From NCBI GenBank assembly GCA_009760855.2, contig WPIO01000119.1, forward strand, positions 676,001 to 740,000: DNA of 64,000 nt, written 5' to 3'. The DNA is from Cristatella mucedo (taxonomy: Eukaryota > Bryozoa > Phylactolaemata > Cristatellidae). Shown piece by piece: positions 1,933-40,800 of this stretch. The notes beneath the pieces are model-generated. The model was not told where the DNA came from and ran no database searches. It saw only the letters and a program-made list of their open reading frames with translations. Each line of letters starts with the position of its first letter. Within the stretch, counting starts at the first letter, position 1. The position numbers and the translations under genes were made by a program.

Positions 1933-1999
1933 ATGGCCAACTTGAAACGCTTTTTCAGAACTTTACTGCTACTAATCTCGCGAGACATCTGTTCTGGTG
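1933..1999 (+). CDS. Candidate exon 1: start codon and signal peptide of the L1-like gene
   Basis: The ATG at 1933 lies in a good context (GGG before, G after). It opens a short peptide beginning MANLKRFF, followed by a small hydrophobic run (TLLLLIS) and then a possible cleavage region (CSG). The exon ends at a strong donor, G/GTAAGT, in phase 1, which is the phase exon 2 needs. An acceptor-like site preceded by pyrimidines ends at 1867, so the exon could begin there, with a non-coding exon further upstream. The hydrophobic core is short for a signal peptide. The join to exon 2 spans 9.5 kb and rests only on phase and position, so another leader exon is possible. Confidence 0.45.
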
Positions 2000-4900: not shown

Positions 4901-7900
4901 CTCTCCCTGTTCTCCATGTATACTAAATCTCTGGGAATACTGACTAAGGCCCGAATAAGATATCACTTTTATGCGGACGATAAACTTAACAGTATTTGCA
5001 TTCAAACTGTTGGAATCTGCTGCAGCAAATGATAAACTGAATGCTTACCTTGCCGGTATTCGATCCTGAGCATAGGAAAACCTTTTTAAAATAAAGAACT
5101 ATAAAACCAAACTACTGCTCTTCGGACGAATTAAGTGTGAGGCTGGATTTAAAGGCTTTACTCGTCAAGTCTGTGAAGCTATTGTCCGACCATCACCACG
5201 CCTTTGAAACTGAGGCGTCGTTTTCGAATACTGCCTTAATTTTATAAGTTTTACTTAGATGAGTGCTTCTGCAGCTAACAATCACGTCTCATCCCTACCC
5301 TAGATCAAGAGCTGTCTTCCACAGTGGCTTCCAAAAAATTTAACTAGCTCCTTAGCTTGTTTCCGGCATGCTTATTGTCATTTGCCTTTGGTTTGGCTAC
5401 CAAACGAAGCAGCTAGGCCAATCCAGCTGGCTATGATTATGGCTGCAAGGCTAGTTTTAACGTCCCAGACGTCTGACTACGTGTCGCCTTCGCTAAAAGA
5501 GCTAGGATGGCTGCTGGTTGATACTGATACAGAGCCAAGTTCTCATGCTAAGCCAAAAGGATTGGCTCCTCTCTACTTTGCCGACCTGCTGCACCCGTTT
5601 CAGCCTCCTCGTGCCCTTAGGTCCTGTGTGGACAATTAATTGGCTGTTCCATACATCAGCTGAAAGATACTTGGCGACAGAAGCTTTAGCTCTGCAGGTC
5701 TTTCACTGTGGAACTTGCTTCCATTATCCTAATGCAACGGCAACTACTCTTCTGCTGCCGACTCTGGCTCATTCTTTCCTGCGGTCCTGAGCTGCTGATT
5801 CCATTCTACTCACTACCTCAACTGCTTTCCTGAGTTAGCAATGTTTTCAACATTCTGTGTGTTGCGTGAGATAAAGTCTGTTGGCTACCGAATGCTTATC
5901 GAATGTCGCTTAGGCTATGAGCACTCAATAGAAAACTCTCTTGAGTAGCACCTATATAGTCTATGGCTTTGCGAAGTTACGGAAGTAAAAACGTTACATA
6001 ACAACACAGGTTTTAAGTGACCATTCGTTAGTTGACAACATCATCTCCACAATCAAGTCTGCATACTATCAGCTTTATAACATATCTAAAATGTGGTCTC
6101 CTTTTTATGGGCATACTACATGTAAAGTTAAGGATGCATTTGTAACGTCGCGTTTTGACTTCTATTACTCACTGCTCACTAATTTACCGGCCCGTGCAGT
6201 CAGGGGCTACCGCTATGCAAATTCCCACAGCTAAGCTTGCCTGTGCTGAGATTTGCAGTTACCACTTCTTGTTGACCTGCACTGACTACCATTCAAGCAA
6301 CGGATTGACTTCAAGGTTTTGTCGCTCAATTTAGATTACTTCATTCTTTGGCTCCAGCCTAGCTCTCAGATCTACTCCCCCACCAGGTCAAGCATCGTAC
6401 CACCCGCATTTCGGAATCCAACAGTTTACCAATACCTCGTACAAACCTCAAATCCTTTGGAGACCGTGCATTTAGTTCGTATGCTCCCAAAGCCTGGAAT
6501 GTAATGTATCTCCGTCAGTAACTCCACAAAGTCATAAAGACCACGTGGATGTTACGCAGGAGAGTTTGTATAGCCCATCCACAGCCTAAGCGGCTTTCGG
6601 TACGCATTCGGTAGCCAACAGACTTCGTCTCACGCAACAAAGAGAAAGTGGAAAGCATAGCAGAGTCAGGAGGGCAGTTGAGGTAGTGACTAGCATAGAA
6701 GTAGCAGTTCAGGACCGCTGAAAAAGATGTGCCACAGTCGGCAGTTGGATAGTAGTTGTCGTTGCGTAAGAATTGTGGAAGCGAGTTCCACAGTCTAGGA
6801 CCTGCTGAGCTAAAGCTTCTGTCGCCAACTGTCTTTAAGCGGAGGAATGGGACAGCTAATTTATTGTCCACACAGGAACTGAGGGCGCGAACAGGCTGAA
6901 ACTGATGCAGCAGTTCAGCTAGGTACGAAGGAGCCAAGCCGTGGCGGGCCTTGAGTGTCAGCGTAAGAACTTTGCTCTGTATCAGTTGCTCAACCAGCAA
7001 CACTCCTAGCTCTTACAGCAGAGGTGACACGTGCTCAAACCGCAGGAACTTGAAGACCAGCCTTGCAGCCATATTCATGGTCAGCTGTAGTGGCATAATA
7101 GCTTTCTTTGGCAGCCCAGCCAAAAGGGAATTACAGTAATCAAGCCGAGACAGAACTAAAGAGCTAGTTAAATTTTTTACAAGCCGCTGTGGGAGACAGC
7201 TTCCAATCTTTGATAGGGATCGGATGTGATGGCTAGCTGTAGAGGCAGTCTTCTGAACGAAGCTTTTGAAACTGAGGCAGCTGTCGAACACGACACCTAG
7301 ATTACGAGCACGTGGTGAAGGTCGCACAATAGCATCACCTATTAGAACAGCAAAGCCTTGTAATCCAGCTACAAGCTTAGGGTGTCGTATGAGCAGCAGT
7401 TTGGGAACTCCCTCCCGACCTGCGTCAGAACATCCCCTGACCTGACCACGTTTAAAAAGAACTTAAAAACACACCTATTTAGGGCAGTATGTAGTGGTTC
7501 CCTGTGATTCGTCCTTGATGTGCTTATGAGTGCTGACACTGTGCATGCTGCCAATAACCACATTTGCATTCTGACCCTGTGCATGTCACCCCTAACCATG
7601 TTATTCATGTTGTTTGTTTATCAATCATGATATTACTCACAATTTAATTGCATCTTCGTTTCCAGCCTATGTAAAGTGCCTAGAAAGAGATTGAATTCTC
7701 TGAGGGCGGTTCATCGAGTGAATTATTATTACTATTATTATTCTTACCACATTACACCACTTTTTGTGTACCTGGACTGGCTACTATCTAGCAATGCATC
7801 GAATTCAAGGTTTTGTCGCTCACTTTTAGGTCCCTTCATTCTTTGCTTCCAGGCTACCTATTATATTTACTCCCCTACTAGGCCAAGGATCGTGCTGATG

Positions 7901-10900
7901 GCCTTTTGGAATCTAACTGTTCACTTATACCTCGTACACACCTCAAACTCTTTGGAGTCCGTGCCTGTAGTTCTAATGCTTCCCAAGCCTGGAACTCACT
8001 CCTGACCTGCATCACGAAGTCTCATGACTTGACCACAGTTAAAAAGTAATTACTAACACACCTATTTCTGACCGGATTCAGTTAATCCCTGTGATTCATT
8101 CTTTACGGGCTTATGCGTAGACACTGTGCATGCTGCCACTAACCAAGCTTGAGTGCTGAGTCTGTGCATGTCATCCCTAACTATATTATTCTTGTTGCTT
8201 ATCGAGAATGCTGCCATTACAAATTGTATCGTGTTTCTTTTTTCAGGAAATGTTAAGTGCCTAGAAAGTGATTTAGTTCTTTGGAGCACTTTATCAGGTG
8301 TGTTACATGTTATTATACCTATTACTTACATAGTGGTTAGCTATTAGTGCACGTCTGGTAACTCATATTCTCAATTAGCCCTCCTAGCCAAACTTTGATA
8401 TGCTGGTTACAATACATTCGCACCCATAAGCCAACCAGTATTTGAGAATAATTTCCTGCAATTGTAGTGGTTAGTTAGGGATTAATGTAGGTAGCATAGC
8501 AACCCTCTTTCTCAGTTCTAACCTATATTTAATGCTGGTTTATTTGAGGTTGATATAATTTGCATGTGGATACCTATTGCTGAGTTAACGTCACAATTGG
8601 CATTTGTGTATTTGCCAATGCTAGGCAGCCTGAAAGGCTGCTTCGCTGAGTAAAGCATTAATAAGAATAAGGTGCTAAGACAGCTCAATATTACTAATAA
8701 AACTGCCACTTGAGTTTGCTGTCTTGTTAATGATTTAAAGATTTTAAATTTACATTAATGCATGTTAGTCCTAAGTCTTCAGGCTAAGTCCAAAGGCTTC
8801 AGACTGAACTCGACTGATTATCAACCTTTAATATTAGACTCCCTGGCCCTTTTCTAGTGTTTAGTCCTGTGGGGCATAATTTGGTCATCTTCAACGGATG
8901 GTAAGGACAGTGATAAGCTTCGATCTTCGCCCAGCAGCTTAAAAGAAATCATATCGACGATTTGTACAGCTCTTAAGATTCAAGGCTTCTACTGTCACTC
9001 TGAATGCTGTACCAAGACTTCCGATATTTACCTTGTCTTCACATATCGAAATACATGTTAAATGATTATTCTCAGCTACTTATGAAGTCCTTTCTCAACT
9101 GAATGCTGTTCTGCCTTTTAATGTCACAGCTGGGTAAATAATGAAGCCATCGAGGTTGAAATTTGGAATGCGATTTGGCTTGGGCTTTTGCATTATTTAA
9201 ACCATCTAAATTTTTTGTAGGACTTGGCATAGTTTATTTACTTGCTCAAAAGCTAACTTTATTACTGAACAATCGGTTCATTAACTATGGGCTTTTGTGT
9301 CTCGTGTTGTTTGTGGATTAGCTAGGCTGTCTTTGATAAGCGTTAAGTCTCAGTAAAAGTCAACGCAGTCGGTAATTTCTACTTGAACGTCTTTTAGGAA
9401 GTCTCCCAACTTTATCGGCGGCTTACTGACCTTGAAATGTATGCTTCGGCAGCATTGACTGGTTCTTTTGGAGCGAATATCCAACAGTCTGGCTTTGTGC
9501 TTTAAAAATATCTTTGCTCATAAACTCACGATAAGTCTGAATTTCGAGGGAGAATCGTATTTTGCCTTCCGTGCTAGGTCGGTTGTTTTCACGGTCTATA
9601 ATCTCCCTCTTGCTGATGTGACTGCCAAGCAAAATCTAGGCTTCCACTTCTATGCAGATGACACTCAGTTGAACCTTTGCTTTGATCCCTCCCAGCCTTC
9701 GAGTACCTCTAATTCTCTCAACTCGCTGCATGTATTGATAACATCCGCACAAGGATTGCAGCAAATTTTTGAAAAGTAAAAGCTGATAAAACTAACTTAC
9801 TATTTATTGGGCAAACCCAGTGTGATTCGGAAATTGGAAAGGCCGACGCTCGAAATTGGCTCTGAAAACATATCTTCTATTGAATCAGCTCGAAATCTAG
9901 GTGTCATGTTCCAAAGTGACCTCCCGTTGGACGACCACATCAGCTCCACAGTCAAGTCTGCCTACTTTCAGCTACATAACATTGCTAGAATTGTGCTTGT
10001 TCAGATAGGGCTACCACGTCTAAGTTAGTCCGTGCATCTCTGAAATCTCGTCTTGACTTCAGCAACTCATTGCTTACTGGCCTACCGGCATGTGCGATCA
10101 GGCGATTGCAGCTGGTGCAAAACTCTGCAGGTAGGCTCTACTGTCGTGAGCGTCTCAGTTGCCACGTAATGCTACCTTCCCCCGACCTGCACTGGCTCCC
10201 AGTCAAGCAACAGATTGACTTCAAGGTTCCATTGCTCACTTTTAGGTCACTTCATTCTTTGGCTCCAACCTAGCTCTCAGATCTACTCCCCCACCAAGCC
10301 AAGTATAGTACCACCTGCTTTTTGGAATTCAGCAGCTATCGAATACCTCGTACAAACCTCAAATCCTTCGGAGACCGTGCATCAAGTTCATATGCTCCCA
10401 AAGCCTGCAACTAACTCCCGACTTGCGTCAGAACATCCCCTGACTTGACCACATTAAAAAAGAACATATAAACACACCTATTTAGGACAACATTTAGTGG
10501 GTCCCTGTGATTCGTCCTTCATGTGCCTTTGTGTGCTGACACTTTGCATGCTGTCACTAACTACATTCGCATGCTTACCCCGTGCATGTCAAACCTAACC
10601 ATGTTATTAATGCTGTATATCAAGCATGATATTACTCACTATTCAATCGTGTTGCCCTTTGCAGCAAATGTAAAGCGCCTAGAAAGAGATTCAGTTCTGT
10701 GAGGGGGCTTTATCAAGTGCATTACTATTATTAATATTTTCATTACGCGATAGAAATTCCGTTTCACTACACCCGGATTTAGTATCGCCTGCACCCACGT
10801 CCTCAACTGTGCATTGCATTAACATAATATTCCTTTTTTACCGATTTCAAATCAAAAATAAGTTGTCTACATTCGACTATTGTAGGTCTTTTTATCACGT

Positions 10901-13900
10901 CAGTTGAAGTATTTGTTTTCACTCTACTGCAATATCTTGAATCAGTTAGTTTTAAGCTAATACTATTGAAACGCCAAGGCATACACCGTGATCTTCACTT
11001 CCGAAAATATTAGGCGTTTTTGCGTTATGAAATATTGAAGGTTACTCATGCTGCTTTTTGAATTTCCGTGTCAATTTTGAAATTAGTTTGTGTTTTCTGA
11101 TTGAATAAATAGTTTGCTAATACGATAAGCCTTATCTGTATAGGTAGGCAACGCCTTATGTATCCTGAGTCTCTCTAATACGTATTCTCATATAGAATAT
11201 TGCTTGCCTCTTATTGACTTGGTACATATCCTTGTGAAACTGGGCTGCACGAGAGTTGGGCAAACAAATGACACCCAACAATGGTTCACATTAATGTTGT
11301 TTGTAGAATAATTCTAGATAATTACTGCCATAATGTTGAGATACAAAATCGCGTCTCTGGTTTTTCATCAAATTATCAATAAATTCATGAAATTATTGTT
11401 TTAATTAATTTATAATAAAATCATTTTTTTTTAATGTGCTCGAGCGTTTTCCTTAAACTGCTACGTTCAATAGTTTAATCCTCACATTGCCTTGTTACTA
11501 CTTCAGCCTCTCTTTTTAAGGTACTGTCTATGCTCCCATCCTAACGCGTCTTCCAGGGAATAGCCAAGTTAAGCTTTTGTTTGTGACGTCACTGTTTAGT
11601 GGCTTTGTACTTGCGTGCCAACCTGATGCAAAGTCAGTGGCTTGGAAATGCTAAGTTCTGTGGTGGTCGTCCCTCTTTTCTCTATTTTTTAAACACACCC
11701 AATATGCATCGCTCTGGGCTTTATCATTTTAACCAATACCAATATGCTTGGCAGAAGTATTTAGCCGTTTGATGAGTAGAGTCTTTTTGAGTTTCCATCT
11801 TCTAAAGACTTCTAAAGATAGAAATTATTGAGTGAAAAATATTGAACTCATGTTACTTTCTTAAAATTCCATGTCAATTTTTAAATTGATTTTTGTTTTT
11901 TTGATTAATTAAAAGTTATGAAATGACGGTAAGTCGTAGCTGTTTAGTAAGACAAACTCTTATCTAGCCCTAGTCCCTCTAATACGTCTTCTCATATTCA
12001 ATAGTGTACGCCTCTTATTTCCTCGGTACATATCCTTATGAACCTAGGTTGCACAAGACGTGAGCAAACGAATGATACCCAGCGGTGGTTCACATTAGTT
12101 TTGTTTGTAGAATAACTATAGACAATTAGTGCAATAAAATTGAGGAAAAGTCGCGGGTCATGTTTTTCACTAAACAATTGTTAAATTTAATAAAATAGGA
12201 TTTCAATAAATTTGTATTAAAACAACCATGTTTTTCATTTTGTTTGTTTTTCAGGCATGATTTTACTTACTATTCTATTGCGTATCACTTTGCAGCAAAT
12301 GTACAGAGCCTAGAAAGAGATTAAGTTCTCTGAGGGCGCTTTATCAAGTGCAATATTATTATTATTATTATTATATCATCATCTTAACAATGTGCACGAT
12401 TCTTTTCCTCAACCTTTGATGCTCAACAAAACCTGCTCTTGCCTTATTACTATCTAAGCATGTAATTTTTAGGTACAGTTTATCCTCCCATCATAATGTC
12501 TCTTCAAGTTAATGGTCAAGTTAATCCTTTTGTTGTCACATCACTTACCAGTGACGTTGTATTTGTGTGTCAACCTGATGCAAAGTAAGTTGTTTCGTAT
12601 TAATAAGTTCTGATGCGGTCGTCCCTCCTGTCTATTTATTCACAACCAAATATGAATAACTCGGGTCTTTGTAATTTTAACCTACGTCATCATGATTGAA
12701 AGCAAGAATTTTGCAGCTATACGAGCATATATGGACGAGTGTTTTTGAGTTTTAATCTTTTTATTCGGGCTGACGTTTCGATATGAGTGTTAAAGTCAAG
12801 TAGTCTACGCTCAGATCACATGTAGACTATCTTAGGCTTATGTGACTGTCTCCCTCTAAGCTTTGTGCCAATGCGATAAATCACAGACTGTGCACAATTC
12901 AGCAGTACGGCTTTCGTGATCAGTTCTGCAGCTGCATTAACCCAAGAAATACGAGTTGAGCTGGCTCCTCAGCAATTGCAGTCCGTTCTTTCTCTTTCTT
13001 GGTGGTTTTCGTCTTGTCCCATTAAACATTTTCCTACTCTGGCTTTCTGGTTACGTTTGTAGATAACCTAAGATCATGCACACCTTGTAAATATAAGAAG
13101 TGCCGGCCTTCAAATTTTATGACACTCTCTCTCGTAATTCTAGGCGAAATTTCGAACTTACTTTTTTCTTTACAGTTTTAACTTCGGTCATAGGAACTCT
13201 CTTTTATGTGCTCATTTTGAATGTTTGTATCCTTACTTGGTCTGCATAGTTCTCTGAGCGGCCTACAGAAGAAAAAGATAAACGTGCTTTTTTCTACAGC
13301 GTGTTCTATGTAGCTGCAGTTAATAATTATTAAATAATTATTCGAAAATAAATGTATATACCACCCTACGAGGAATACATCTTTTTCTAGGCACTTTACT
13401 TATGCTATATAAAAAGCACATTACGAAATGATTGGTGATAATATCAGGAAGTTATGCCGTTGTTGCTATCATCCGCATTTGGCTTCAGGTCTTAAATTCT
13501 ATTTATGCAAAATGGAAATGTTTTTTTGTCTTGCAATTGTTTATTATTATCTCATTGGGTAAATAATCAGAATTTAGCGATCTCTGCAAAGAATTGGACT
13601 TCGATAAATTGCTAACTTATTTCCAGAAGCATTTCATTTGTGTCTATTTTTGTAAGCGATGGTGCTTCTCTGCCTTGCCTCGTCTCTTCGATGGTGATTG
13701 TCTTAAAATGTTCCTAGCTATAAGTGCTTTAATTTACATAAATAATCTTTGTAATCAGGCCAACTGACTGAGTCCTAGCCCACGGTAAGGCGAAAGTTCT
13801 TCACGCCCAAGAGTGCACCCGAGTCCTTTAGTGAGCTGCCATTCTTGCCCACTGCATGAGATGGTGATAGCCGGCAATGCTCTCCTGTTGCCATGGAAAG

Positions 13901-16900
13901 CTATCCCTCTGTGGACTCACTTAACTGCGTCATAGTACTTCCGTTACGGAATACGAGGCTGTACCGTCTAAACCTATGACGGAAATGCTCCATCTTGTGA
14001 TGGACATTCTCACTTTCATTAGTAGATATAAAAGCCGTTGGGTCAGCTAACCTTTTACTTGACGAACATCGTGGGAGATTTTAGCAATCGCCAAAATAAA
14101 TATTTTCCTATCCGACGAGATTCTGACCGTGTACCTTTATATTTATGCTCTGCTACCCTTTCTATAAATGTTTAACAGACTTCTTTCTTTAAGGCCATGC
14201 AACAAAACCGGCATATCCAGAGCACCATCCACTTGGCCACCTTAGGCTCTTGTCATAATTATTCCCACCTTGATTTTTTTTAATAAGTTTATTTCATTTA
14301 AACTATGTAGCACTATGATGTCTACAACATTCTTAGGCATGCTGACCGAATTGTGTGAATACACTTAGTGTTTGCAGCTGATTCCTACAAGACCATAGCA
14401 TCAATCACAAGACGCGAAATAATATTTATTTGCTACTGTAGGTACAGGTCCGACCATCATGATTTCCTACACTTGTAAAATTCAAAACTTACTATAGTGA
14501 CCATCTTCTGGCTTAGGTAAAGTAATTCGGCCAACCTTATAGTCCAACGTGTACATCAGCCGGAGATCCTTTGCAGCTATGACCCTGTTTGCTGTTGGCA
14601 ACCATCGATACCCTGTTTCTAGGCGCAAATCCATTATTCACGAACACCTAGTCTGCGAACAGTTTCTTGAGAGTCAAGTAAACACGGTTGAACTCAGTAC
14701 CAACCAAGTATTTTTTCGACTAAAATTTCAGAATTGAGTATTAGGGCCACAATACTAGTGGTAATTGGTGTTCATGCAGCCACACTTGCTATGCTTTAAG
14801 CAATTCAAGGGTGTCAACAACACTCAACTGGTGTTGTGAGTTTTATCTCCACTTTTGCAGACCTGCAAACGTTTAGCATCAGATCACAGTATCTGCTCAC
14901 CAACCACTACAGGCATAGTGGTATCAGCTGGGCACTTGAATTTAAACTAAAGCATGTAACTGCTAATAGGCATTACATAACGATTTGGCTAGAGCATGTG
15001 ATGTCATTTAGGCATTTTGCGGTCAGCAGTAGTAGAACACAAGTCTTGATAGCTCAATATTAAGTGCATTGGACCTAGAAGTCAGAGGTGACCAATTTTA
15101 TTTCTTGCTGAAACATGTTGCGTTCATAATCTGAAGATTGACTGAGACTTGAGATACTTTGCTAGACACTGTGATACAGCTGCCACATCTAAAATGAGCA
15201 CTTGACGACTGGTTTTGTCTGCAATGTCTACAATACGATGTAGCTCGTTTACCCACAGTCTTTAATGCAATTCGACTTAATTCGACTTACCCGAGCTGTT
15301 TAAGGCCAGAGCACATTCTCGTGCTCTGGCCTTAAACAGCACGGGCCAGCCAGCATGTATATACATTAGAATATCGATACAGGTACCATTTCCATAAATT
15401 GCTTCCCATTACATTGGCTTTGGTGACAAATTAAAGCAGCCATGGTTCCACTAATTATCATGCAATTGTGCTTTGGATGGATGCTCTTGCAATGGCCTTC
15501 AACAGATTAGCCCAGTGATGCCCTCTATATTCCAATGGCTCTACAGCTGCCATTTACATAAACTTTGCAAACCTGTGGTTTTTATTCTTTATTACAGGCA
15601 GGAAGCCATGTTCAATGTTGCCGCACTTATCTTTGTGCTAGTGGGCATGCCTGTTCTCATGCTGTGGCCTTCTTTTGCCTGGCTATCCAGATTCCTAAAG
15701 TACTCATTTTGCAATACAGTTGCCATTGCAATTGTAGGCACTGGGCTACTTTGTTATTGACTCCGTGAAAACGAAAGGTTATCCCAATCAAGCCACTTCA
15801 CTTCATCAGATTTCTCGTCTGAGTTCTTGCGTACTAGCTTCCAATATCCCAGCTCAATGAGCAGTCTTACACTTCGGAGTGCTTTTTGTAATCGAAGCCT
15901 CAATTATGGAAAGCTTATTGTAAAAATGTCAGACTAATCTAATTTCGAATAGATAGGCTTGCTGGCTGGCCCGGCCACTGGACACTATACCTTGAGAAGG
16001 GTCAGGAACTGTGCCATGAAAGTTGGTTGGTGCATCCGGAACACGGTTTTCGGTATAGGGTATCAAAGCAGCAGCTGATTAGGCAGCCTGTGGAATTGGC
16101 AGCTACATCTCAGTTTGAAATATAGTTCTGACCAGGCCTTTATAGGATTATGCACATTCCCTAGGGCATGATATTCTTTGACACAGCCTGAATACTTGTT
16201 TTTCATCATGTTGAATGAAAACTGCTGTTTTGCTACGCTATTATGAAAATGGCAGGTGTTTAGCAGTTCGAGTATGCATGTAGGGAGGTTGGCTGGCTGG
16301 CCAGAGTCGTTGGTGGCTGTAGCATGAGTAGCCAACTCACTATGCCACGATATGTGCCGGTAAAGTCTGATTGCTGTTTTCTTTCATTTGAAATCAAAAC
16401 CGCAGTTGCAATCTAGTTTCCGTCTATTACAATGCTTACAATGGAAACGACAGCTGTGTTGCAGTTTGAAATTGCAGACATTTGTAAGCATTTGCTCGAG
16501 AGCCGGCAACTACAGTGACATTAAATTCAGGGGGTAAACCCGGATCACTGTTCTCTGTAATAGGGACCCCACGTCAAAGTTGTTTGAAGTTAATTGTTAA
16601 AATTGCAGTTGTTGCCCGTTTGTAATATTGGGATGTCGTAACTGGCTGGCCATAGAATGCAATAGCTTGGGCACGTTCAAGAGCACTATCATGACATTTT
16701 GTGGGTTAACCAGGTACTTGGATCACTAATATTTCCAATCATAACCATATTTGCTCGAACCTCCTGTGAAAAGGGCAGTCTGCTTACAATTTAGTTATTT
16801 ATAGTTGCCATCTGAGCTAGGCCACTGGAGGCCATGCAGCAATTGAATGGAATGTAGTGAGTATCTGCCTACTTTCAGCTACATAACATTGCTAAAATTC

Positions 16901-19900: not shown

Positions 19901-22759
19901 GGCTCACAGCCTTCTTTTGCACATATGGACAAGTATGCTGCTTATTAGATTTGTATCTCTACCGAAAACCGGTTGAACTTTAAGTCAATCTCATGTTACC
20001 TAATTATTTTTCGGTTAAGGCATGACTGCTTGCGTAATTAGCTTTGTTTAACTGAGCCTCTGGTAATTGTTAAGCTCAGTTTTAAGCATGCATCTGCAGA
20101 CTTAGATCAGACCGTTGGCAGCTACTGCTAGCAATACTACTACTTTTGCTAGCAATGCAGTGGCTACTCTCAACTGGTCAAATAGTATTTGAGGAGTGGC
20201 CGTCATCTAATTTATAATTGGCACAATTTTTTCCGTAATGTGTAACCTGTTACGGCATGCTATTAAAGCATTTCTGATGTGCCGTATGCGTTTTTGCTGT
20301 TTTTGGAAGCCAATGGCATTGAAATGTCGGTGAGTTTTTAGATAACTAGTAGGCATGCTTAAAGGAAAGCTGTTTGTATTCGTAACCCTCGGCTGTGCAG
20401 ATAGTTACAAACATATTGATTCTAAGCTGAAAACTGTATGGCACAGCTATTTGTAGTTACGGAAGCAATGCTGTATTGTGCTCACTCCATCTTTCTTTTA
20501 CCTTCACAATCACTTATCCTTGCTTGTCATTGCAGTGTTGACCCTAGCACTACTTACAACTGGACCGTGAATGGTTTCCCACCATCCAATAACTATGTTG
20601 TGAATGGGGCTACTATGACACTACAAAATTATAGGTTTAGCCCTGGAATTTATACAGTAGGGCAATACGATGGCAACTATGAATGCACTGCCAAAAACTC
20701 ACAAGGCACTGCAGTCTCAAGTCCAGCTGATGTACGGGTTGGAGGTATGTAGCATTCTTTGCATAATCCTGCTTTTTCAGCTTTGAGAGGGATAAACAAT
20801 TTCTTATAGGTGTACACAATTCCTGGCAACACCAGTTATGCAGTTGGGTCTGTCCTAGATGTCTTATATACGTTTTATCATGCTTCCTGCTGAAATGGAC
20901 GAACTGCTATTTTGCTTTGACATTGAAGGTCATTGACGGTCACCATTGCCACCATGAGCTTGCATGTACACATTCTTGTCACAGTAATGAGTGATGAGCT
21001 GCTGGCCGTGTTGCAAGCTGAAGCTGTGTGTTTGGAAGCCGGGTTTCACTCTTTGATATCTTCTCAGGAGAGGCAGGTCACCTATACATGCTTGCCCTGC
21101 TTTTTCTAGTGTTGGCAGGTACACCATATGCTGTAATGCTATCCCTGAACCTAACTACAGCTGGGAATGTGCTTTTATGCAAGAGTTATTTCCTTTTCCT
21201 TGCACATTGCCATTGTTTGCTTAACATGTACTGTAGAAACTCAGTTCAAGACACCGGGTATTTACTTTTAGCGACCTCATTAGTCTTGGCTTAACAGTAC
21301 ATACGCATTTCACCATTATTAAGGACTGTGTTAATGAATTCAGACATTATTACTACACGAATAGCTATTGCGATTTCAACTCATAATAAAGATCATGTGC
21401 AACCGCATTCGCAGGAATCGATATCTTGAAACAAAGCAGCTTATTAAAGGTTGTCATAAAACCGCAACTTGTCTAATCTGCCAAGCATGTGACTTTAATT
21501 GTCAATTAATTTAATCAATTGCTAATTTAAAACATTTAATTAATTACTTTAGTTGTTTTTTGTGCTTTCCATTCTCGAATCACCCAAATCGTGTACAATC
21601 AGATAATTGTTTTGAACAGTCAGCATTATTAATGTTGCAGCATTTTATCACTGGTTTGACATGTTTTGTGAGTGTCGTGGTATTATATATGCAACTAATT
21701 TTTGTTTTTTTTCTAGCCTTTATAGGTACATATTTACCTACTAGTGCACCAGCAGCAGTACCAATGTCGTTCAGCCCTGGCTCCACTCTGATTCTGCCAT
21801 GCAACTCGAGCGGTCCTTTGACATACTTGCCTTCGATCTGGAGCCTTTCTCCAGCATTCGTCTGGTTTGGGACATTAATTAATGCTCCACCTGGTACCTT
21901 TGGACGTGTTGAACTTGTGTATACTCAGGACTCTCGCTATACCTTTAACGATTACGGTAAGCATTGTTTCATGCTATTCAAATCCTGAAATTACCGAGGA
22001 ACTAGACATGTATAGATAGGGTTATTGCTGTCTGTTTTTTGTCTTACATGGCCCCAGCTAAAACTATTTTTTCCTGACATATGAGTATTTTTTACTTTTA
22101 AAATCTCAATTAACTAAATTCTGAATTTGCAGAGATTAGTTACCCAACAAGTTGAATAATAAGAAATGTGTCTTCATTTTTATTCAAGCAATGCCACAAT
22201 GGCTAAGTGGTATGTAAGCTAGTGAGCGTTCGATGTATTTTTAATCCTATGCAGCTGCCGGTGTACTTCTGAAAGCCAACATACTCCATCTCAGGAATAG
22301 GAAAACTGAAAAATATAGTTTAGTTAGGACAGTCATGAAGGACATTGGTAGCCTTTACAAAAAAAGGAAAGAGTATCTGGAACTGCAGCAGAGAAGTTGC
22401 ATTAGGTTATTGCTGATGTGGGCTTCGATGTCTAGGACTAGCAGAGCTCTTGTGGCTAGCAGTCTGTATTCAATAGAAATAACCAGCTGACATTGGTCCA
22501 GCAATACAGCTAGATGTGAAGAAGCCAATCTACATATAGTCTTGGTAGGAGCTTGCTCTGTAACCTTCGATCAAACATGTGCCGTCGTAGCTCCTTCAGC
22601 TGGCTTAATTTCTTGAAAGTTTTGACCATCCTGCAGCTTTCCCACTGTCGGCTGGTTTCGCATTAGACTACTCAATAATGGAGGACAAAGGTCCGGTCTA
22701 GACCAAACAAGCTTCAAGCAGTCAAAGAGGACTCCTGTACAATGGGTCCATGATGATCA

Positions 22760-25800: not shown

Positions 25801-28800
25801 GGAAGTATGGGCCGTAGTCGGCAGCAGGAGATCTGGGGCCATTTCATGGGAGATCTCCTTGTCAGAAACGGTCATGCACATGCTGCTTTGGCTATGACAC
25901 GAGCTTAATGAGCCGGCGATGTGCAATTTGGTTTGCAGAAATCCTTGCTACGTTTGAATTTTTTAATTATAATTATAATTCATTTGTATAGCGCCCCAAG
26001 AGAACCTATGTTCTATTCAGGCGCTTCACATATGCATCGGGCTCGAGCCGGCGACCTCAGACAGACCTTGGTCGGGGCAAGCACCTTAACCGCTGGGCCA
26101 AACCAGCTTGGTTTGAAAGCTTTATATGAGTGCTTAGTGTGGCAGAGCTAGTCGGGTAAAAGCTCGACAGTTTTTTCTTTAAGCAGGTGGTACGCTGTTG
26201 TGCAGGTAAATGAGCTAGTGCAAATGAGATGAGCTTACTTAGCTTGGTCATAATGCCAGTCAATCAGCAGTCAGGTTGGAGTAACTCAACTGTAATCTGA
26301 GATGGCAGAAGCCACGAACTAGTCCAGGACGCTTGGGTTGAATGACACCTGTAGTGTAAAGCTATATAGTTAGTGGCTGCTTAAATAGCTTCTGGAAGCA
26401 AGAGGCATCAATTCTCATCCCAGTGGAAGCTCCCCCCTGGAAGCACAGGTTGCCAATTTTTTGTTGTAAAATGCTGAATGACATCTGCCATGAAAATGAA
26501 TTAGGAAGAGAAGCTGTCTTGCCAAAAATTTATGTGCAAACAAGAGATTTTTACAATAAAAAACTTATACACGTAAATGTCTCCTATGTCCTGTATTTTT
26601 TTCTTAAGATTTTGCATTCATTTTTCAGTAGTTTCTATAGTCGAAAATAGTTTCTTAGTTACTCATCGCAGATTTCGATAACTTTCCTAATCTTGCACAA
26701 TGCAAGAGCACCTGTTGCATTTTCAGCTCTCGATATTTATGTATTTATAAGGCTGTTGCATGTGATCTGCCATGGTGCTAGATATTCTGAATTTTGTCGT
26801 TAAAACCGAATACAAACAGGTAAGCCCCGGTTAGTAACCTCTTGCCACATCCAATAATCGTTTATTCAGCCGTTGTGTAGCCCTGTAATCCGACTACCAG
26901 CTTTAAACCTTAATCATCTGTGTTGTTGCACTCGTTTGTAAAGATGATACCATGCATGTGATTAAGCTATGCTTATCTTGTAAAGCATTTGGGTAGAAGA
27001 ATTAAATATAGTGGTGCTAAACAGATGACTTTCGAATTCTTTTACGGTTTATTATAAGTTGTACTGTATCTTAAAAGGTTTTCATAAAGTCTTCGCACAA
27101 AACGCCACTTGTTTGGCCACCACTTTTAATTTTTTTATCTGTGAAAACTGCTAGCTTTTTCACAGAGCAATCACTATTTGCTCCCCTTTGTATTAGCTAG
27201 AGACGATTCTTGGCACTGATAAATAACTTAACTGATACGTGTTGTAGGTACATTATTCATTCGAAATAGCACAGCTGATCAGTTCAGCAGTTTTAAGTCT
27301 ATTTCTTGCTACATTAAAGAGAGTAGCTTTTCTTCTGAACTGGCAGTGGGGGTTTACAACATGCAACCATCTTCGACGCCTGGCACTCTAACCACTGCTC
27401 CCACTTTACTGTACAAGTCACCTGATTTGACTGTGCCCGAAGGAGCATCGTTTTTCCTCAGTTGCATATTTGATGAGTAAGTTTGCAAATGTGTGTTTTT
27501 GTGTGTAGATGTGCTTGTAGTAATGCATACACGTACTTTATAGTCTTGCTCTGCCCCTTAAGCTGACGTCTACCTGGTGCCGGCTTCCGGCTTTTAACGT
27601 AGCATATAGACACAATACGTAAATCATTTATGCGAAATATTTAATATATACATATCTGTCTCTCATTAAAAATGTTGCTGATGGTGCAAAAAAGTTAATA
27701 AGTTCGGTCATTCAGTGTTTGTAGTGAACTTTCTGATTTGCCCCTGCATAGTGTCAATTTGCCTCTTATTGGGCTCTGGTGCAATATTTAGCCAAGGGTA
27801 CTTGAGCCAGCAAAAAAGCTTATTACGAGTCGTAGCAGGATTAGAGTCAGACCTCGTACAGCACTCAAAACTGGTACAGCACTCAAAAATATGCTCTACG
27901 GGATTTAGATCAGGTGGCTGACTCGGCCAACTTACGACTCTGACCCGTGATTGAGCAAACATCTTTCGTCGGAGGCCTTTGCTGTGTGCTTGCGGTAATT
28001 GACTTTATGCCAAACATAATCATTCTTCAGGGGAGCTCTAGCTTTTGGAATTTCGGCATTTCTAAACAGTTCTATGTGCCAATGGTGGTCCATGTTTCCA
28101 TCAAAAACGTGCAGCACTACCACAGCAGAACAGCAAAGGCAAATACAAGCCAGGACACTGCTGCCATCGATTTTAACTGTTGGATAATAATAACAATAAT
28201 AATTCCCTTGATAAAGCGCCCTCAGAGAACTTAATCTCTCTCTCTAGGCGCTTTACATTTGCTTTAAAGTGAAATGCAGTTGAATGGTAAGTAAAATCAT
28301 GCTTGAAAAACAAACGAAATGAATAATATGGTTAGGGGTGACATGCAAAGGGTCAGCATGCAAATGTGGCTAGTGGCAGCATGCACAGTGTCAGCACGCA
28401 TAAGCACATCAAGGACGAATCACAGGGGCCCACTAAATGCTGTCCTAAATAGGTGTGTTTTTAGGTTCTTTTTAAATGTGGTCAGGTCAGGGGATGCTCT
28501 GATGCAGGTCGGGAGAGAGTTCCAGGCTTTGTGAGCATATGAACTAAATGCACGGTCTCCAAAGGATTTAAGGCTTGTACGAGGTATTTCTAGACTGTTG
28601 TATTCCGAAAAGCATGTGATACGATGCTGGCCTGATTGGGTGGTATATCTGACAGATAGGCTGGAGCCATAGAATGAAGGGACCTAAAAGAGAGGGACAA
28701 AACCTTGAAGTCAATCAGTTGCTTAACTGATAGCCAGTGCAGGTCGGCGAGAAGTGGAGTAATGTGGCAACTGCAAAGCTCACGACAGACAAGCCTAGCT

Positions 28801-31800
28801 GCAGAGTTTTGCAATAGCTGCAATCGCCTGATCGCACATGCTGGTAGGCCAGTAAGCAGTGAATTGCAGAAGTCGAGACGGGATGTCACGAATGCATGGA
28901 CCAACTTGGACGTGGTATCTTTATCTAAACAAGCCCGAATTTTAGCAATGTTATGAAGCTGAAAATATGCGGATTTGACTGTGGAACTGATATGGTCGTC
29001 TAACGAGAGGTTGCTTTTGAATATGACACATAGATTTTGAGCTGATTCAACTGGAGATATGCTGGCAGAGCCAATTTTGAGAGTCAGCCTTTCAAATCTC
29101 TGGATCACACTGGGTTTGCCCATAACTAGCAAGTTAGTTTTATCATCATTGCACAACAGTCAGGGTAATACAACGCACCATTTCGCAGACTCATGTTCTC
29201 CTTTTATAATATGGTAGACAATGAGTTCGACAACACTACTACTAATAATAAGAATAATAATAACAATACATTTCATATAGCACCACCATATAACTCAATA
29301 TCTTTCTAAGCACTGTACAACTACATTATGTTTAGAGGTAGTATGCTCAATAAAACCAAAAATAACATGGTTAGGGGTGATATGCACACGGTCAGCATGC
29401 AAGTATGGTTAGTAGCAGCATGCGCACTGTCAGCATGCATAATTACATGATGGTTGAATCCCAGGGATCCACGAAATGCTGTGGCCCGTGCCTTAAGTTC
29501 ATAAGCTCCCAAAGCCGTGAATTCACTTCCCACTTGTGTCACGATGCTCCCTGACTTGACCACATTTAAAATGAAACTAAAACGCATCTATTTGTAACAG
29601 CATTTAGTGGGTCCCTGTGATAACTAGAAGTTTTGTTCAAGTAGAGTTAAACTCACATGAGCAATTGTAGCCTCTGTGTCTTAGCGCAGGAGGTAAGGTG
29701 CTGGCTTTTCACGATACGGGTTGTGGGTTCGAATCCGGGGATACACAAATCAGCCAGCCGAATAGTACTTGCTATTTGGAACTCGTGCTTCCGGTAAGTA
29801 GGCATGGCTTCGCGAAAAGTGGTAGCTGACACCTCGGAACCAGTTACAGGCCTTCTTTAGCATCAGTGCATTATGCTATTCTATCAAGCTGCTACTCTAT
29901 CAATACCGAAGATTACAGTACCCTGCAACTTTTTAGGCAAATATTGTACTTATAGTTGAAAACAGAAGCCTCCAACACTGCTCAATAATATTTTGACATC
30001 TTAGGAGCATATATTGCGTAATGCTAGACCTCTTGCTTTATAAACAATCTGCCCCACTTTGATTCTAGGTGACTTTACTGATTCAGCCATGAATAGTCTG
30101 CATGAGCTTGACAAGAGTCTACACCAGTTTCACTGAATAAGATCAACCACTGAGAAATGCATATTTTGATCACTTTGCTGCTAGTTTACATTTATCCGTA
30201 CAAATTCCGTGTGGGTTTTCAATTAGGTGCCTGACTGTGGCAGCTCATTGGGGTATTAGGAGTCGGTTAATCTGGTTCTCTGTTCTACTTACACATGTTT
30301 TCCTTATTTAGCATTGAGTTATTCCTCGAATGCCTCTCTGTTATCGCATTGCTATTCTTGCAATTGTAACTCATTTTCCGAAGCACAGGCCTCTGAGCTT
30401 AGGAAAATGAGATTCGTCGTACTCTCTCGGACTTAATTCAATATAGTTGACTAGTGTTTGTGTGTGTACTTGTTTGCGTTCGTGCATGTGTGCACGTATT
30501 TTGTCTCTAACTCTCCTTCACTCTCTCACTGACTATTTATCTTTTTTTTACTGGCTATTTATTCGGCGTACATGGATATGATTGAACCTGTCTTGTGTTT
30601 CTGCTTTTTAGTCAAGGCGGTGCAACCGCTTTGGTAAATTGGAACAACTATGTTGCTAATCGGCAAGATGGTGGAGCTAGGATACAAATAATTAATGCCG
30701 ACGTCAATCTTCCATCATTATGGACCTGCACTTATGTCAGTTCAAGTGGTAAAAGTGCAACCGGTACGATTACAGTGACAGTACTGCCTTATCCTGAAAT
30801 ATCAGGCCTGCAGGATACAATTGTCACGACTGGATCTGTTGCCGTGTTTACTTGCCGAGTGCGTCCTCTGAGAGCAGCTACATTCAAGTGGTACAAGAAT
30901 GGTATGGACGTTCCGCTATTGAAGTATGTCTCTGCTTTAAGTGCCGATGGTTTTTATTCCAGTAAGTTTATTATATTTGAGTTTGGCAAGATTATTAATT
31001 TTTTTTCTTAGCGTGTTCAGTCAAGACTTTGACTTTGATGTATCAGTGCTGAAACAGGTGTGTCGTAACACGGGCTTATGCTAGCTTAGCATGATAGCTG
31101 AATTCCACAACGCAACTTCCTTATTAGGAGGTAAAGCAGTATTAACACAGTGCCACATGTGCACCGAGCAGTTCGTTTAATCGGCTACTATCGTGAGCAT
31201 GCCGAAATTAGTCATAAAATTCCTACCATCCTTCTCGAAATGCAATTGAGACCTAACATGAGATGTAGGTGAGCATTTTCCTATGGCAAGTTCCTGTGGC
31301 TTGCTGCCCTTCCGTTGCGAGCAGCTCAGTGCCGAGATGTGGCTCAAATATGTCAAGTGTTGTCATCTAGTAACCACATGATTTGGTTGTTGCCAAGTCT
31401 TTTTACTAGCTTTGCAGGTCCGGCAGAAAAGTTTGTCGTTTGGGCATGCTTCTTTGAAGTATTAATACCTCGGCATGTCATCAGTGAGACAGCTCCTGAA
31501 ATATTCGTAAAGTTTCTTTGGTCATTATGTGTACAGTTTTTTCTGTACAAGAGGTGCTCAATGAAACTATTGGGATTTCCTCATTGCTAAACTAGATTTG
31601 CTTTTGTTTCCAAACAGAACCACACCTACATTTGCTATTAAAATCTGGTTTATTTAGGATATCATATCCTTTGCATGGAAGCTGAAAACTCAACTGCGAG
31701 TGCTTCAGCTTTGCACGGCTGTCAAACAGGCAAACGATATTATATTGGGTAAAATTTGACGATGCTCTTTGCTGGAAACGTTTCCCGAAGCTTAGCTCAA

Positions 31801-34800
31801 CACAGCCTCCATCTGACTGCTGACCTTGATCGACCCTGGAGCCTAATCAAACACAAGAACGACAATAACAATCTCAGACCATGGCCCCGGGTGTTTATGT
31901 GACCTGTTTACCTGATCGGACTCCAGTCTTTAATAAGAGAGAGGCTCTGCCTTTTCAAGCTTATTTTAAAGTGCGAAACGCTCAAGACTTGTATGGCCTG
32001 TTTTACCTTAACTTGCCAATTAATTGCGTGTTAACTATGTAGATGTGTAGGCTGAAGCTTGTCAAAGCTGCCGAGCCCAGAGGTTATCCAGCTTCTTTGG
32101 ATTGTCCATTGCAGTCATTGCTGGAACTTAAGGAAGATTGCTCTTCAGAAAGATTACTCGTCCAAATACAGTTGTTTTGTCAGCTATAACAGTTGCTCGA
32201 GACTAGGATCGTCTGTTTGATTAAGTCTTATGGTCTTTGTTTTGTTAAGAGCAACATAGAATTTACTGCCTTGACTTGGCATAAGTTAATGTTCAGCCGT
32301 GAGTATAATTTTAGGCTGTTACACTTTGTAGTTGAATTTGCTCGACATGCTCTTTTTATTGTAGCTGCGTACAGAATCCTATTAGATTGACTGCAAACGA
32401 TGACCATGCTCCCAAGTATAATACCCCTTCGCTAATTTGTTATGTAGTTTAAGATTTGCATCAAGCATTTAGCATATTAAGGTAAATTTCTAGAAAATGC
32501 TGGGAAAATTCTGTCCAGCAATCTTACGTTTGTTTAGGGTACCTTGCAAAAAGACAAACATGTTATAAATGGTATCACAAGTTTTGTCGATTTCTATATC
32601 ACAGGAAAAAATTATTATTACAACCATGTCTAACTAGAAAATTAACCGGAAGAAACATCTACAAATATAATGTCCGATCGTCAGTTCTTTTATAAATTTT
32701 GAAAACTCTTTTGTACTTCAGCAGAGGTCTACTTTTAGCATGCCTACTCTGACCCAACTTGATACGTCGGCCGGGTGGCTGTGTTTTGCTGTGACCTGAG
32801 CGATTGTCATTTACTTTCCTTGTTTCGTTTTGTTTCTCTGATCTTTTACTTTTCTTTTAGCGTTTAGTATGCTTCAGGCATTAAGCTTTCCTTGGTAGCC
32901 GCGTCTTCGACCCGGTAATAGTAGAATAAATTAATTTATCAGTGGAGTTTCGACAACGGCTTTTTTTTAAATAAATTTGGTAAACGACCCTGTTAGCACT
33001 TCTGCACGTATCAGCTCCGCTCTCATGTCTTGGTCTTTGAGAATTTCAACACGGGGACAGACAGTTAAAGTGAAACCTTTGCAGAGGTGTGTTGGTTGGT
33101 CTACGCCTGTATTCCTCCCATTTCCGTGAGGTAGCATAAAGTCTAGATAGCTGCTATAGCACAGCTGTGTTTCGGTTGTTTCTATAAACACAGCCGGAGA
33201 GTTAAAATGTCTCATATCAATCTCCATAATTTTTTTTTCATGGCTGCTTTGGTCATAGTGACTTAAGCCATTGGGCAAGGGCTTAATTTTTTGCTGCGAT
33301 CATGTCTGTTATAATAAACTCAACTAAGTTTTCCTTAATTTTTATGTATTTCGAATGTTCGTAATTTCATTGCATATGAGCCGTGATCGAACGCCCATAT
33401 GAATGCCTACCTGCTGCATTCTCAAAAGTTGATACCGAAGGTTTTTTATTAAATGTATTTTTTAGCCCTTACAATCTCCAATGTTGACAAAGCAGACATT
33501 AGCGTCATCACATGTACTGCTTCTAACACTTTGGCGATTCGCAAGAAAGGTGTCAGGCTAATAGTCACAGGTATGTGGTTATCGTTGGTTTTATTTTGAA
33601 CTTACATACTTCTGTTTAGTTTTTAACCTGAGCATGTACACTTGGTTTCCTTTTACCTCCAGATCCGACAACTGTCAGTATTGCTGCCATTCTGGACAAC
33701 CCGGTTGCAGGCAAGCCTGGTAACTTCCCGGTAAACCGTAATACGACGACAATAAGATTTTTATGTGATTACACCTTGGATTCTAGTATCTCCGGGGAGA
33801 AAGTGGTGTGGCAAATGCATGCATATTCAGGTGACATCGATGAGAACACACTGGCACCAGATTTTGGCTTGCAACTATCTTCTGTCGAAACGCAAACATC
33901 CCAGAAGCAGTCCGCCTTGACTATTCAGTATACTCCGGAGAGCTCCCGGAAGATCTTGGGGAGTGTCAACTGTTCAGTGTTGTACCAAATTCTAGGCCAA
34001 TCCTTTAGGGCAGGATCAGGAAATTCCGGTCAAATAACCGTCACAGAAAGTGAGTACTACTATGTGTGTGCAATGATTTTTCTGTGTATTTTCTTCGGTA
34101 GAATGGCTAGTAATACTCTTAGCTTGTTTTGTAGTACCTCCACCATTAGAGATTACCACTGTCGCACAGTTTCCTTACTGGATTATCGGTGTGATCGTTG
34201 CTGCACTTTTTCTCATTCTTCTGGTATTCCTCATCATCTTTTGCGTTCAGCGGAATAAAGGAGAGCAATACTATGGTGAGTTTGTCTTTAACATCTGTAT
34301 TGTAAAGTTATTCATGTGTTATTAGCCTACAGTGTCTTTCGAAAATGCCTATTTCTTTTTCTGGCTTTTGCTAACTTCACTTGATTTAATAACATGGTTC
34401 TGGTTTCTGCTTGCAATGCATAGCTTTGCCTTGGCTACATGTAAAGCTGTATATTCATATCACGGCTTTGCTTGCTACAGTTGGAAAAAAGGAAATGGAC
34501 GCTGGTCATGATCCCAAAGAAGACAGGCCTACGTGGCAGGACTTCAACCGTCCGTGAGTTGGATTTCTACTTTGTATATTGGATGTTTGATCTTAATTTG
34601 TATTATTTTTATGGGCTGCGTGTCTTAGTAATCAAAATGAGTGTCTGACACAAATTGAGTCAAACAGCCAATAGGCAGGGAGAGGCAACACTTAAAAATT
34701 TTGGCCTCAGTGGAACAGGATAAGGTAAGCTGTTTTGGTTGTAGCTAGTGGACCTCTGCACTTGTTCGGATGATGCGACTAATCCGGTTTTTCACGTGGT

Positions 34801-37800: not shown

Positions 37801-40800
37801 TGAGAACTGTGTATTGTTGTCGATTAGGCTCCTTATCTGCCTTCTGATTGCTTCGGGAGGCTTTAATGATTTGGCACATTGCCGACAAAAGTCAAGCTGC
37901 AGTGAGATGGCTGGTTGTTGTTGTGTAGCTCTCATTCATATTCCCTAGCTCTGTATATCATATTTTCTGTAGCTCTGGTAGATATGTTCATGGAGCATGT
38001 CTCCTGCTGACAGACTCGTCACTGTTGTCAAGTCATGTGACTCGTTGCATGTCAAAAAGCACCACACATGTACAACGGGTTTTCCTACTTAATATCTAGC
38101 TGCAGTTTATCTGTGATGTAAAGATTGCCCACTCTAGCTGCGACAAGAAATACACTAGAGTCCATAGAGGAGTCTCTATAGAGGAGTCTCTATAGAGGAG
38201 TCTCTATGGACTTTGGCGGATTTTTCTGCATCCCCTTTGCTCGGTTTTCACGTCCTAGTCAGGGCTCAGCTGGCCGAATAGGGCAAGAGTCTTGGTGTCC
38301 TGAAGGACTTTCCCAAGCACCGTCAGACGAAGTGAGATGGATATGTGAGTTGGTTTGCAAGTTTGCCAATGCCGAGTTTTTTACTCTTGTGTTGCTACTG
38401 CATGCTTGTTGGGTCAGCTGCTGCTAGTCGTAATGGCTCACTAGGTAAGGCGTTGCTTTTCACGACCTGGGCTCCTAGGTTGTCAGTTCGAATGCTGTGG
38501 TGGGCGATCCTTTATCGCCACTGCAAGCATTGGTGATCGCCGTCAAGGCTCTTCTGTCGCCATACAAAAAGAGGCGGTTAAATCAGCTAGCATTTTTTAT
38601 CTTAGGCTTTGCCTCCTCGCCCACCCTTTCCACCTTCGAGCATTATTGGGGTTCGGACAGCCAAGAAGGCATCTAAAGTACCTGGTGCCTATGTGCTATA
38701 TAGATCTACTGTGAATCGGCAAAATGTCCACTCAAATGATTAAAAATGAGCTTTAACCCTAGCTAATTGTGCATGAGCAGAGAAAGTACCATATCCGAAG
38801 TGGCTTCAAAAAGATATCCCATCGCCGTAATGTCATGTGGCCTTAAAAAACAATGTCTAGTTAACTGATGTCGATGTAGCAAATTGATTTGGCTTGCCGG
38901 CAATCGGCTGTGTCAGTTCCATTGGCATGTCCCTGTGGTAGTGACAAAGTCCAGTCATCAACTAACTTCTTTAAGTTGGCAATATTTGTTCAGGGGCCCA
39001 CTTCCACCTTCATATAGCTTTTCAACCTTGATTAATTAATTGTGCGCACTGCTGAAACATTAAAAGCTGTTATTGGTCGGGGAAAGTAGTTTCTTGTTTT
39101 TAAATGTTTTTGCTGCACTGTGACATGATACCCAACAGAAAAAAAAATTCCTTGCATGTGTTTATTGACACGTGCAAGCCGCCTTCACAGCAGCTACAAC
39201 TGTCGCAAGAAGCAGTTGATGCAAAAATTAGTTGGTATTCTGTTAGGCCTAATCTGACTGAGGTCGTGGGCTCGAGCTCCGAGGCATATGTGAAGCACCT
39301 GAATAGAGATTAAGCTCTCTTGGGGTGATATATAAAAAAATTATATTCAATATTTAATAATCTGTCTGCATGTATGCATGCATGCATACCTGCCAGCTAG
39401 TGTGTGCTTATAGCAAACAAAATGGTTTCAAAACTTTCATTTATTTGTACACATATAAATGTGCTCAAAATTACCTAATTTTTCTTGCATTTTTTTATAC
39501 TTAGCCTAGTGACTCTCTGTTATGCATTGTTTTACTTTACAATTGCTTAGGCCCATGGAAAGTTTCATAGAATTTTAATTAAAAAAAGCGTTTCCATAGT
39601 GCCCTAAGAGAGCTAAATATCAAATCAGGCACTTCACATTTGCCACGGGCTCTATGCAGCGAACTCGGCCTTAAATACATTCACGTTTACTTTGGTCGTT
39701 AAAAGTAAGCAGCCGAACCACTGACCCAAACCAGACTAGGCCATGCATAATGAGTAGGCACTTACGTTTAAGCTAGCCAACGACTTCTTAGACGTTGTTT
39801 CCATTGCACGTGGCTTCTCTGACCTCTATTTTCATCGTCAAGTGTGTGCATCCTAATAATGGAGTTCGTCAGTTGCAATACTGGTCTTGGCCGTGCACAT
39901 TGGCCTAGTTAGCCCTACTGTTACAGAGCCCAGAATGGAGACCACTAGATTGACATCGTCTTTGACATCCCTGGTTAAGTTTTGCTTGCAGAGACTGTCA
40001 GTCTCCCATAACCGTGCACCATTCTTCACTAGAGTCAGAAACTGCATGCTGATCGCAAGTCTCATTTGTGGGGTGGTTATTCTCTCTTAAGTTTTCTTAC
40101 TTATAAAAAATATTGACTCCTCTGGCCTACTCTCCCTCTGCATTCGAACCGCTTAGCTTTGCATCTTGCCCACCTCGAACCTTATGGAGACCACGTCTTT
40201 TGTTTCATGAGCTTAAACTCACTCTTAACTTTTCTATCGGCAAATATCCCGACATCCACTTGGGGAGATGCTGTATAAGTGGCATTTGGGCTTAATCGGA
40301 GTCAGTCGGGATGTTTTGGTTATGTTGGGACTTTCAATTGTAAGGTGCTGCACGGGCTTCTGTCTTGCTGGTGGTTTGGCCTAGCCAAGCTATTATGCTC
40401 CCCCTCCGACCTAGGTCTGGCCGAGGTCGTGGGCACGAGCTCCTTGGCGTAGGTGACGCTTTTATAAACATCGGTTTCTCATAGGGTACTATGCAATGAA
40501 ATTATATATTGTTTTTGTATGGTAAGATCTAAGGGACCGTTGTATTCTGCTAGCATTTTGAGAAAATCTTGTGTCGGACTTTGTGGATTTGATGTTGAAG
40601 TCTTGCAGTCACCAGTAACAGTTTAGACTTCTCATCATTTCTTCACAGTCTAACAATCTACCAGTTTCGTAATTTTGTCACGATCCCATAAATGACATTT
40701 GTTGAAAATGTGGACCAGTTGAAGTTAGCAAATTGCAAGCATTGGCCAAGGCTTTATTGTGGTCACCCTTATTTTCTTGACCAGTGATCAAGATCCAGTG

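Follow-up and report, generated by a model that had tools for sequence, protein, structure and literature searches.

The window analysed here is a 64-kb stretch of DNA whose gene content points to a eukaryotic, animal source. Its forward strand carries a gene that we modelled with 12 exons (positions 1933 to 40974), the second of which is present in two copies (hereafter exons 2A and 2B, or copies A and B). Exon boundaries were picked by eye from GT–AG sites, reading frame and homology; all phases agree, and a single open reading frame of 702 amino acids results with either copy of exon 2. The modelled exons are as follows:

1933..1999, + strand: exon 1, proposed by eye, with the start codon and a marginal signal peptide (MANLKRFFRTLLLLISRDICSG); leaves in phase 1, donor GTAAGT
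11521..11632, + strand: exon 2A, first half of Ig1 (TVYAPILTRLPGNSQVKLLFVTSLFSGFVLACQPDA); acceptor AAG, donor GTCAGT
12473..12584, + strand: exon 2B, first half of Ig1 (TVYPPIIMSLQVNGQVNPFVVTSLTSDVVFVCQPDA); acceptor TAG, donor GTAAGT
20536..20744, + strand: exon 3, shared by the two forms and entered in phase 2; carries the Trp and second Cys in the second half of Ig1
21726..21956, + strand: exon 4, Ig2 region
27248..27476, + strand: exon 5, Ig2/Ig3 region
30612..30923, + strand: exon 6, Ig3/Ig4 region
31012..31064, + strand: exon 7, Ig4; 3' boundary set to keep the frame, donor GTAACA uncertain
33466..33570, + strand: exon 8, end of Ig4
33663..34049, + strand: exon 9, Ig5-like region
34135..34275, + strand: exon 10, transmembrane segment
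34481..34553, + strand: exon 11, start of the L1-type tail
40785..40974, + strand: exon 12, tail with the FNEDGSFIGKY motif and stop codon; Pfam Bravo_FIGEY

Two parts of this model are the least certain: the 3' end of exon 7, and exon 1, whose short hydrophobic core and marginal signal peptide make it less secure than the other exons. Neither affects the reading of exon 2, because the frame of exon 2 is also backed by Ig homology. The end of the intron before exon 3 (20426–20535, + strand) is open in the exon 3 frame and reads SQSLILACHC, which resembles an Ig B strand; this is probably a chance likeness, although it could be a remnant.

The predicted 702-aa protein starts with a short hydrophobic stretch; an ectodomain of Ig type and a transmembrane segment follow, and a tail of the L1CAM family completes it. 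The whole protein matches Pfam Bravo_FIGEY (E = 9.1e-16; 59.2 bits against a cut-off of 23.8), the motif here being FIGKY. About five Ig-like regions can be distinguished by eye in the ectodomain, of which Pfam marks only some. When compared with PDB, the ectodomain matched 39 Ig proteins, the best being contactin-2, titin, contactin-5 and neurofascin; Dscam is a weak match (E = 0.0032).

Proteins of the L1CAM family (i.e. L1, neurofascin, NrCAM and neuroglian) share the Bravo_FIGEY tail, here with FNEDGSFIGKY, and are typically built of six Ig and four to five FN3 domains. The host protein departs from this build, as judged by Pfam and by the Ig count made by eye: no FN3 domain has a Pfam match at E 1 in its 702 residues, whereas the vertebrate L1-like protein P0001 contains four FN3 stretches. 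Three proteins from public assemblies (P0002, P0003 and P0004, of 666, 674 and 806 amino acids) resemble the host in having Ig domains, a Bravo_FIGEY tail and no FN3 match. They are 45, 40 and 34% identical, respectively, to its residues 565–702 but only distantly alike in the first half of Ig1, and P0004 differs further in having two LDLa stretches; none of the three showed an alternative form. No near-identical protein was among the matches (1, 3 and 46 proteins) of our non-exhaustive protein searches; those with 1 and 46 matches scored only candidates sharing most words, and the latter did not recover P0002–P0004. According to two published accounts, Neuroglian was not found in a glass sponge (PMC10280926) and ankyrins are described as missing from sponges and comb jellies (PMC5135030).

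Both copies of exon 2 encode the N-terminal half of Ig1, as an initial annotation of this DNA had read them; they reach through its first Cys, and exon 3 supplies the Trp and the second Cys. That annotation described two open 112-bp exons with intact splice sites, each entered in phase 1 and left in phase 2; coordinates, lengths, frames, GT–AG dinucleotides and phases all check. Exon 2A is preceded by TTTTTAAG and ends in CAAA followed by GTCAGT, while exon 2B is preceded by ATTTTTAG and ends in CAAA followed by GTAAGT. The copies align without gaps with 85 of 112 bases identical. The earlier count of 21 matching residues in 37 was reproduced (20 of the 36 whole codons plus a split Gly codon), as was retention of the Cys and the CQPDA end in both copies. 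Exons 2A and 2B thus resemble mutually exclusive exons: they are internal, homologous and adjacent, similar in length, share a reading frame and have compatible splice sites. When the window was searched by tblastn with the peptides of A and B, no further copy came up (best other match, E = 0.19), and peptides of seven of the 13 modelled exons (A, B, 3, 4, 5, 6 and 9) gave no convincing second homologue beyond the A/B pair.

One tandem duplication of ∼800 bp, including intron on both sides of the exon, made the exon 2A/2B pair. Its parts are as follows:

11030..11802, + strand: duplication unit A (intron, exon 2A, intron), from alignment and blastn; ends approximate
11840..12760, + strand: duplication unit B (intron, exon 2B, intron), split by a LINE-like fragment; ends approximate
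12224..12380, + strand: insert within unit B, called LINE-like by eye; 12245–12374 is 84% identical to 10614–10743

Without the LINE-like insert, unit B is 72% identical to 11030–11801 over 785 columns (blastn, E = 5e-109), a likeness far beyond chance. An 11-nt block (GGTCGTCCCTC), at 11665–11675 and 12617–12627, is identical in both units and begins 33 nt past each copy of exon 2.

Because 112 is not a multiple of 3, a full protein needs exactly one copy per transcript. Translation bears out the earlier statement that joint inclusion breaks the frame: when A is joined to B, a stop follows at the 13th whole codon of B, so that the pair also fits the expectation for mutually exclusive exons that double inclusion is absent or leads to a frameshift and stop. 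With neither copy included, a stop is met in exon 3. By frame, exons 2A and 2B are a genuine either/or pair; that both are in use appears, from the DNA sequence, to be about an even bet. The same two stops could instead act as an off switch, in which inclusion of A with B or skipping of both would give stop-containing mRNA whose decay lowers receptor output, with no second protein form. The positions of the stops agree with this, and the 840-nt intron between the copies (11633–12472) poses no steric bar to A–B joining. However, copy A retains an open, Ig-compatible frame, which a poison exon would not require, and we consider an off switch very unlikely.

Measured against the sites of our own 12-exon model, the splice signals of copy A are unusual: an A at acceptor position −3 (AAG) and a C at donor position +3 (GTCAGT) are each seen in copy A only and in none of the 11 other acceptors and 11 other donors, respectively. 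By eye, the pyrimidine tract is better in copy A than in copy B. These signals fit either a weak, regulated exon or a decaying one. An alternative acceptor (CAG, 14 nt upstream of exon A) was rejected because it leads to a stop. In its own frame, copy A has a coding score of 2.6 bits (codon model trained on the other exons), a value reached by 10% of 521 overlapping open intron windows, and copy B scores 7.0 bits, reached by 0.8% of them; the range for 18 other coding chunks is −6.5 to 10.0. Copy A might be an idle by-product, skipped and drifting while B does the work, and still open by luck as the duplication is not very old (intron divergence K ∼0.33). Its unusual splice sites favour such idleness, while its coding-like codon score and its better pyrimidine tract argue against it.

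We compared the divergence of the copies with that of the duplicated introns, which served as the yardstick for the neutral rate in the selection test. In the introns, 470 of 643 columns are identical and 173 differ (K2P 0.334); in the exons, 27 of 112 columns differ. The exon copies are no better conserved than the introns (85/112 against 470/643 identical; Fisher P = 0.56). A check of dN/dS between the copies gave 18 nonsynonymous and 9 synonymous differences (pN 0.22, pS 0.33), with a corrected-rate ratio of 0.60 and a bootstrap P(pN ≥ pS) of 0.15. With dN/dS ≤0.35 in both copies, 18 nonsynonymous changes are too many (P = 0.0023), which rejects strong purifying selection on the two together; at 0.5 the result is borderline (P = 0.053). 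The number expected is 14.2–15.7 with one constrained and one neutral copy and 21.8 with both neutral, and the observed 18 fits either, as an idle A would predict. At the protein level, 16 of 36 amino acids differ. Neutral simulations matched for the amount of nucleotide change (219 of 400 open simulations) give 17.5 differences on average and no more than 16 in 34% of cases, with replacements as conservative as the observed ones. Both this drift-like amino acid change and the equal divergence of exon and intron are in line with an idle A. Ordinary constraint on both copies, the usual expectation for mutually exclusive exons, is thus not evident from the sequence.

Nonsynonymous change that is high relative to ordinary constraint, while frame and Cys persist, would also be seen if both copies were used and diversifying selection drove the half-domains apart as in recognition receptors. 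Relaxed constraint explains the high nonsynonymous change equally well, because pN exceeds neither pS nor the intron level, and diversifying selection seems to us highly improbable.

The intactness of copy A is harder to reconcile with idleness. The chance that a copy drifting at the intron rate keeps its frame, AG/GT dinucleotides and length is 0.11–0.12 over a branch of K/2, 0.04 over 0.75K and 0.015 over K, although these values are softened because the pair was picked out for being open. CQPDA, whose retention also argues against an idle A, survives in 16% (K/2) or 2% (K) of open neutral simulations. Copy A also keeps the Cys together with hydrophobic residues at −2 and −4; this pattern survives in 63% of neutral K/2 simulations and has little weight. 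Scored against an Ig1 profile made from three relatives, exon 3 reaches 18.1 bits by itself, 22.4 with A and 24.3 with B; 37% of open neutral simulations at K/2 score at least as high as A, and the score of A carries little weight because neutral decay often leaves an equal one. Overall, an idle copy A is quite plausible, if somewhat short of an even chance, and on the sequence evidence mutually exclusive use and an idle duplicate appear about equally likely.

The explanation that we prefer, and to which we assign close to an even chance, is a duplication-born either/or pair with B as the default and A as a minor or regulated alternative. The ∼800-bp tandem duplication doubled exon 2 of this L1-tailed Ig receptor, with some intron on either side, and so gave rise to the pair; mRNAs containing both copies or neither have a stop (in exon 2B or exon 3, respectively) and would presumably be removed by nonsense-mediated decay. 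Copy B is most likely the default, having more regular splice sites and a slightly better fit to relatives. Copy A, with its odd acceptor and donor and better pyrimidine tract, may be used as a minor or tissue-regulated alternative. The choice between them would exchange the B strand of the outermost Ig domain and the strands before it (named from the position of the Cys), and the Cys and the CQPDA joint would stay constant. Alternative use of both copies is supported by their common length, phases, frame and joint and by the early stop with both or neither. Use of copy A in particular is supported by the low odds of intactness (0.015–0.12), CQPDA retention, the coding-like score and the gain on the Ig1 profile, and is opposed by the lack of excess exon conservation, the neutral-like amino acid change and the odd splice sites. 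The proposal of the initial annotation that the N-terminal part of Ig1 can be switched is thus upheld in its either/or frame logic and in the half-Ig1 content of both exons, while the equal exon and intron divergence, the neutral-like 16 amino acid changes and the splice sites of A weigh against it.

How exclusion could be enforced was also considered. With 840 nt of intron between the copies, simple steric hindrance is improbable, and U2/U12 incompatibility was rejected because neither copy has a U12-type donor. A check for docking/selector pairing detected none stronger than in shuffled sequences at equivalent places after exons A and B, in a scan that could miss weak or many-part structures. 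A first scan of all intron parts of the units had singled out 6185–6214 as an outlier (−28.8/−29.7, against −25.6 for the best of four shuffles; 0 of 500 segment shuffles), with best partners at non-equivalent places in A and B. As a docking site this segment was rejected: its pairing at equivalent places (−26.4/−29.7) is matched by 5 of 17 shuffles, and it lies inside a dispersed repeat that has 8 other matches in the window. Rfam gave zero matches at gathering thresholds across the window. The mechanism that we favour is frame incompatibility combined with decay of the wrong products. A dispersed repeat on both strands (67–79% identity) occurs at 6050–6400, 9949–10311, 16864–17219, 28620–28981, 37175–37320 and 45420–45700, and was called LINE-like by eye from reverse-transcriptase-like frames.

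FGFR2 IIIb/IIIc is a tandem-duplicated mutually exclusive exon pair. A human survey lists 6,541 candidates, of which 1,399 were verified by at least one junction read and 855 at a stricter read count, and accepts joined reads if a frameshift results (PMC5740500). Like exons 2A and 2B, human tandem pairs are neighbouring homologous exons of similar length and the same frame for which frameshifting joint inclusion is tolerated (PMC5740500). Tandem exon duplications are common and linked to mutually exclusive choice (PMC9013439). The pair described here differs from the human ones in being known from DNA alone and in being no better conserved than the duplicated intron around it.

The best-known exons for exchanging half of an Ig domain are those of arthropod Dscam1. 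Exons 4 and 6 of Dscam1 encode the N-terminal halves of Ig2 and Ig3, as clusters of alternative exons of which one enters each mRNA, and a docking/selector model is described (PMC8787164). The parallel with Dscam1 drawn by the initial annotation holds for this anatomy, since exons 2A and 2B likewise encode the N-terminal half of an Ig domain. By contrast, the host gene is not a Dscam, given its Bravo_FIGEY tail and weak Dscam match in PDB; there are two copies rather than 12 or 48, the domain concerned is the first Ig domain and no docking/selector pairing exceeds shuffles at equivalent places. It is possible, though rather doubtful, that two half-Ig exons let an L1-tailed, FN3-less receptor alternate the recognition face of its outermost Ig domain, as an independent small counterpart of Dscam1 soon after duplication, with the choice enforced by frame incompatibility instead of RNA pairing. 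L1CAM also varies its N terminus by splicing, through a neuronal exon 2 that adds the five residues YEGHH (PMC5362498), whereas here half of Ig1 would be replaced.

If both copies are used, a pair of two members with introns that can still be aligned at 73% would reveal how clusters of this type arise, and would test whether frame incompatibility alone enforces an either/or choice before pairing elements evolve. Exons 2A and 2B may be regarded as a new candidate member of the known class of mutually exclusive pairs, set in an unusual host gene; judged by title and abstract opening, none of the literature matches listed reports the gene or the exon pair, which does not imply absence from print. 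The host gene is of separate interest as an L1-tailed receptor without detectable FN3 that has relatives of the same build in public assemblies. Elsewhere in the window, a GC-richer stretch on the − strand (43229–44173) contains a 314-aa stop-to-stop frame with repeated motifs (e.g. QCGEVFPPQECLSWR and QCGELFPPKECLSWR).
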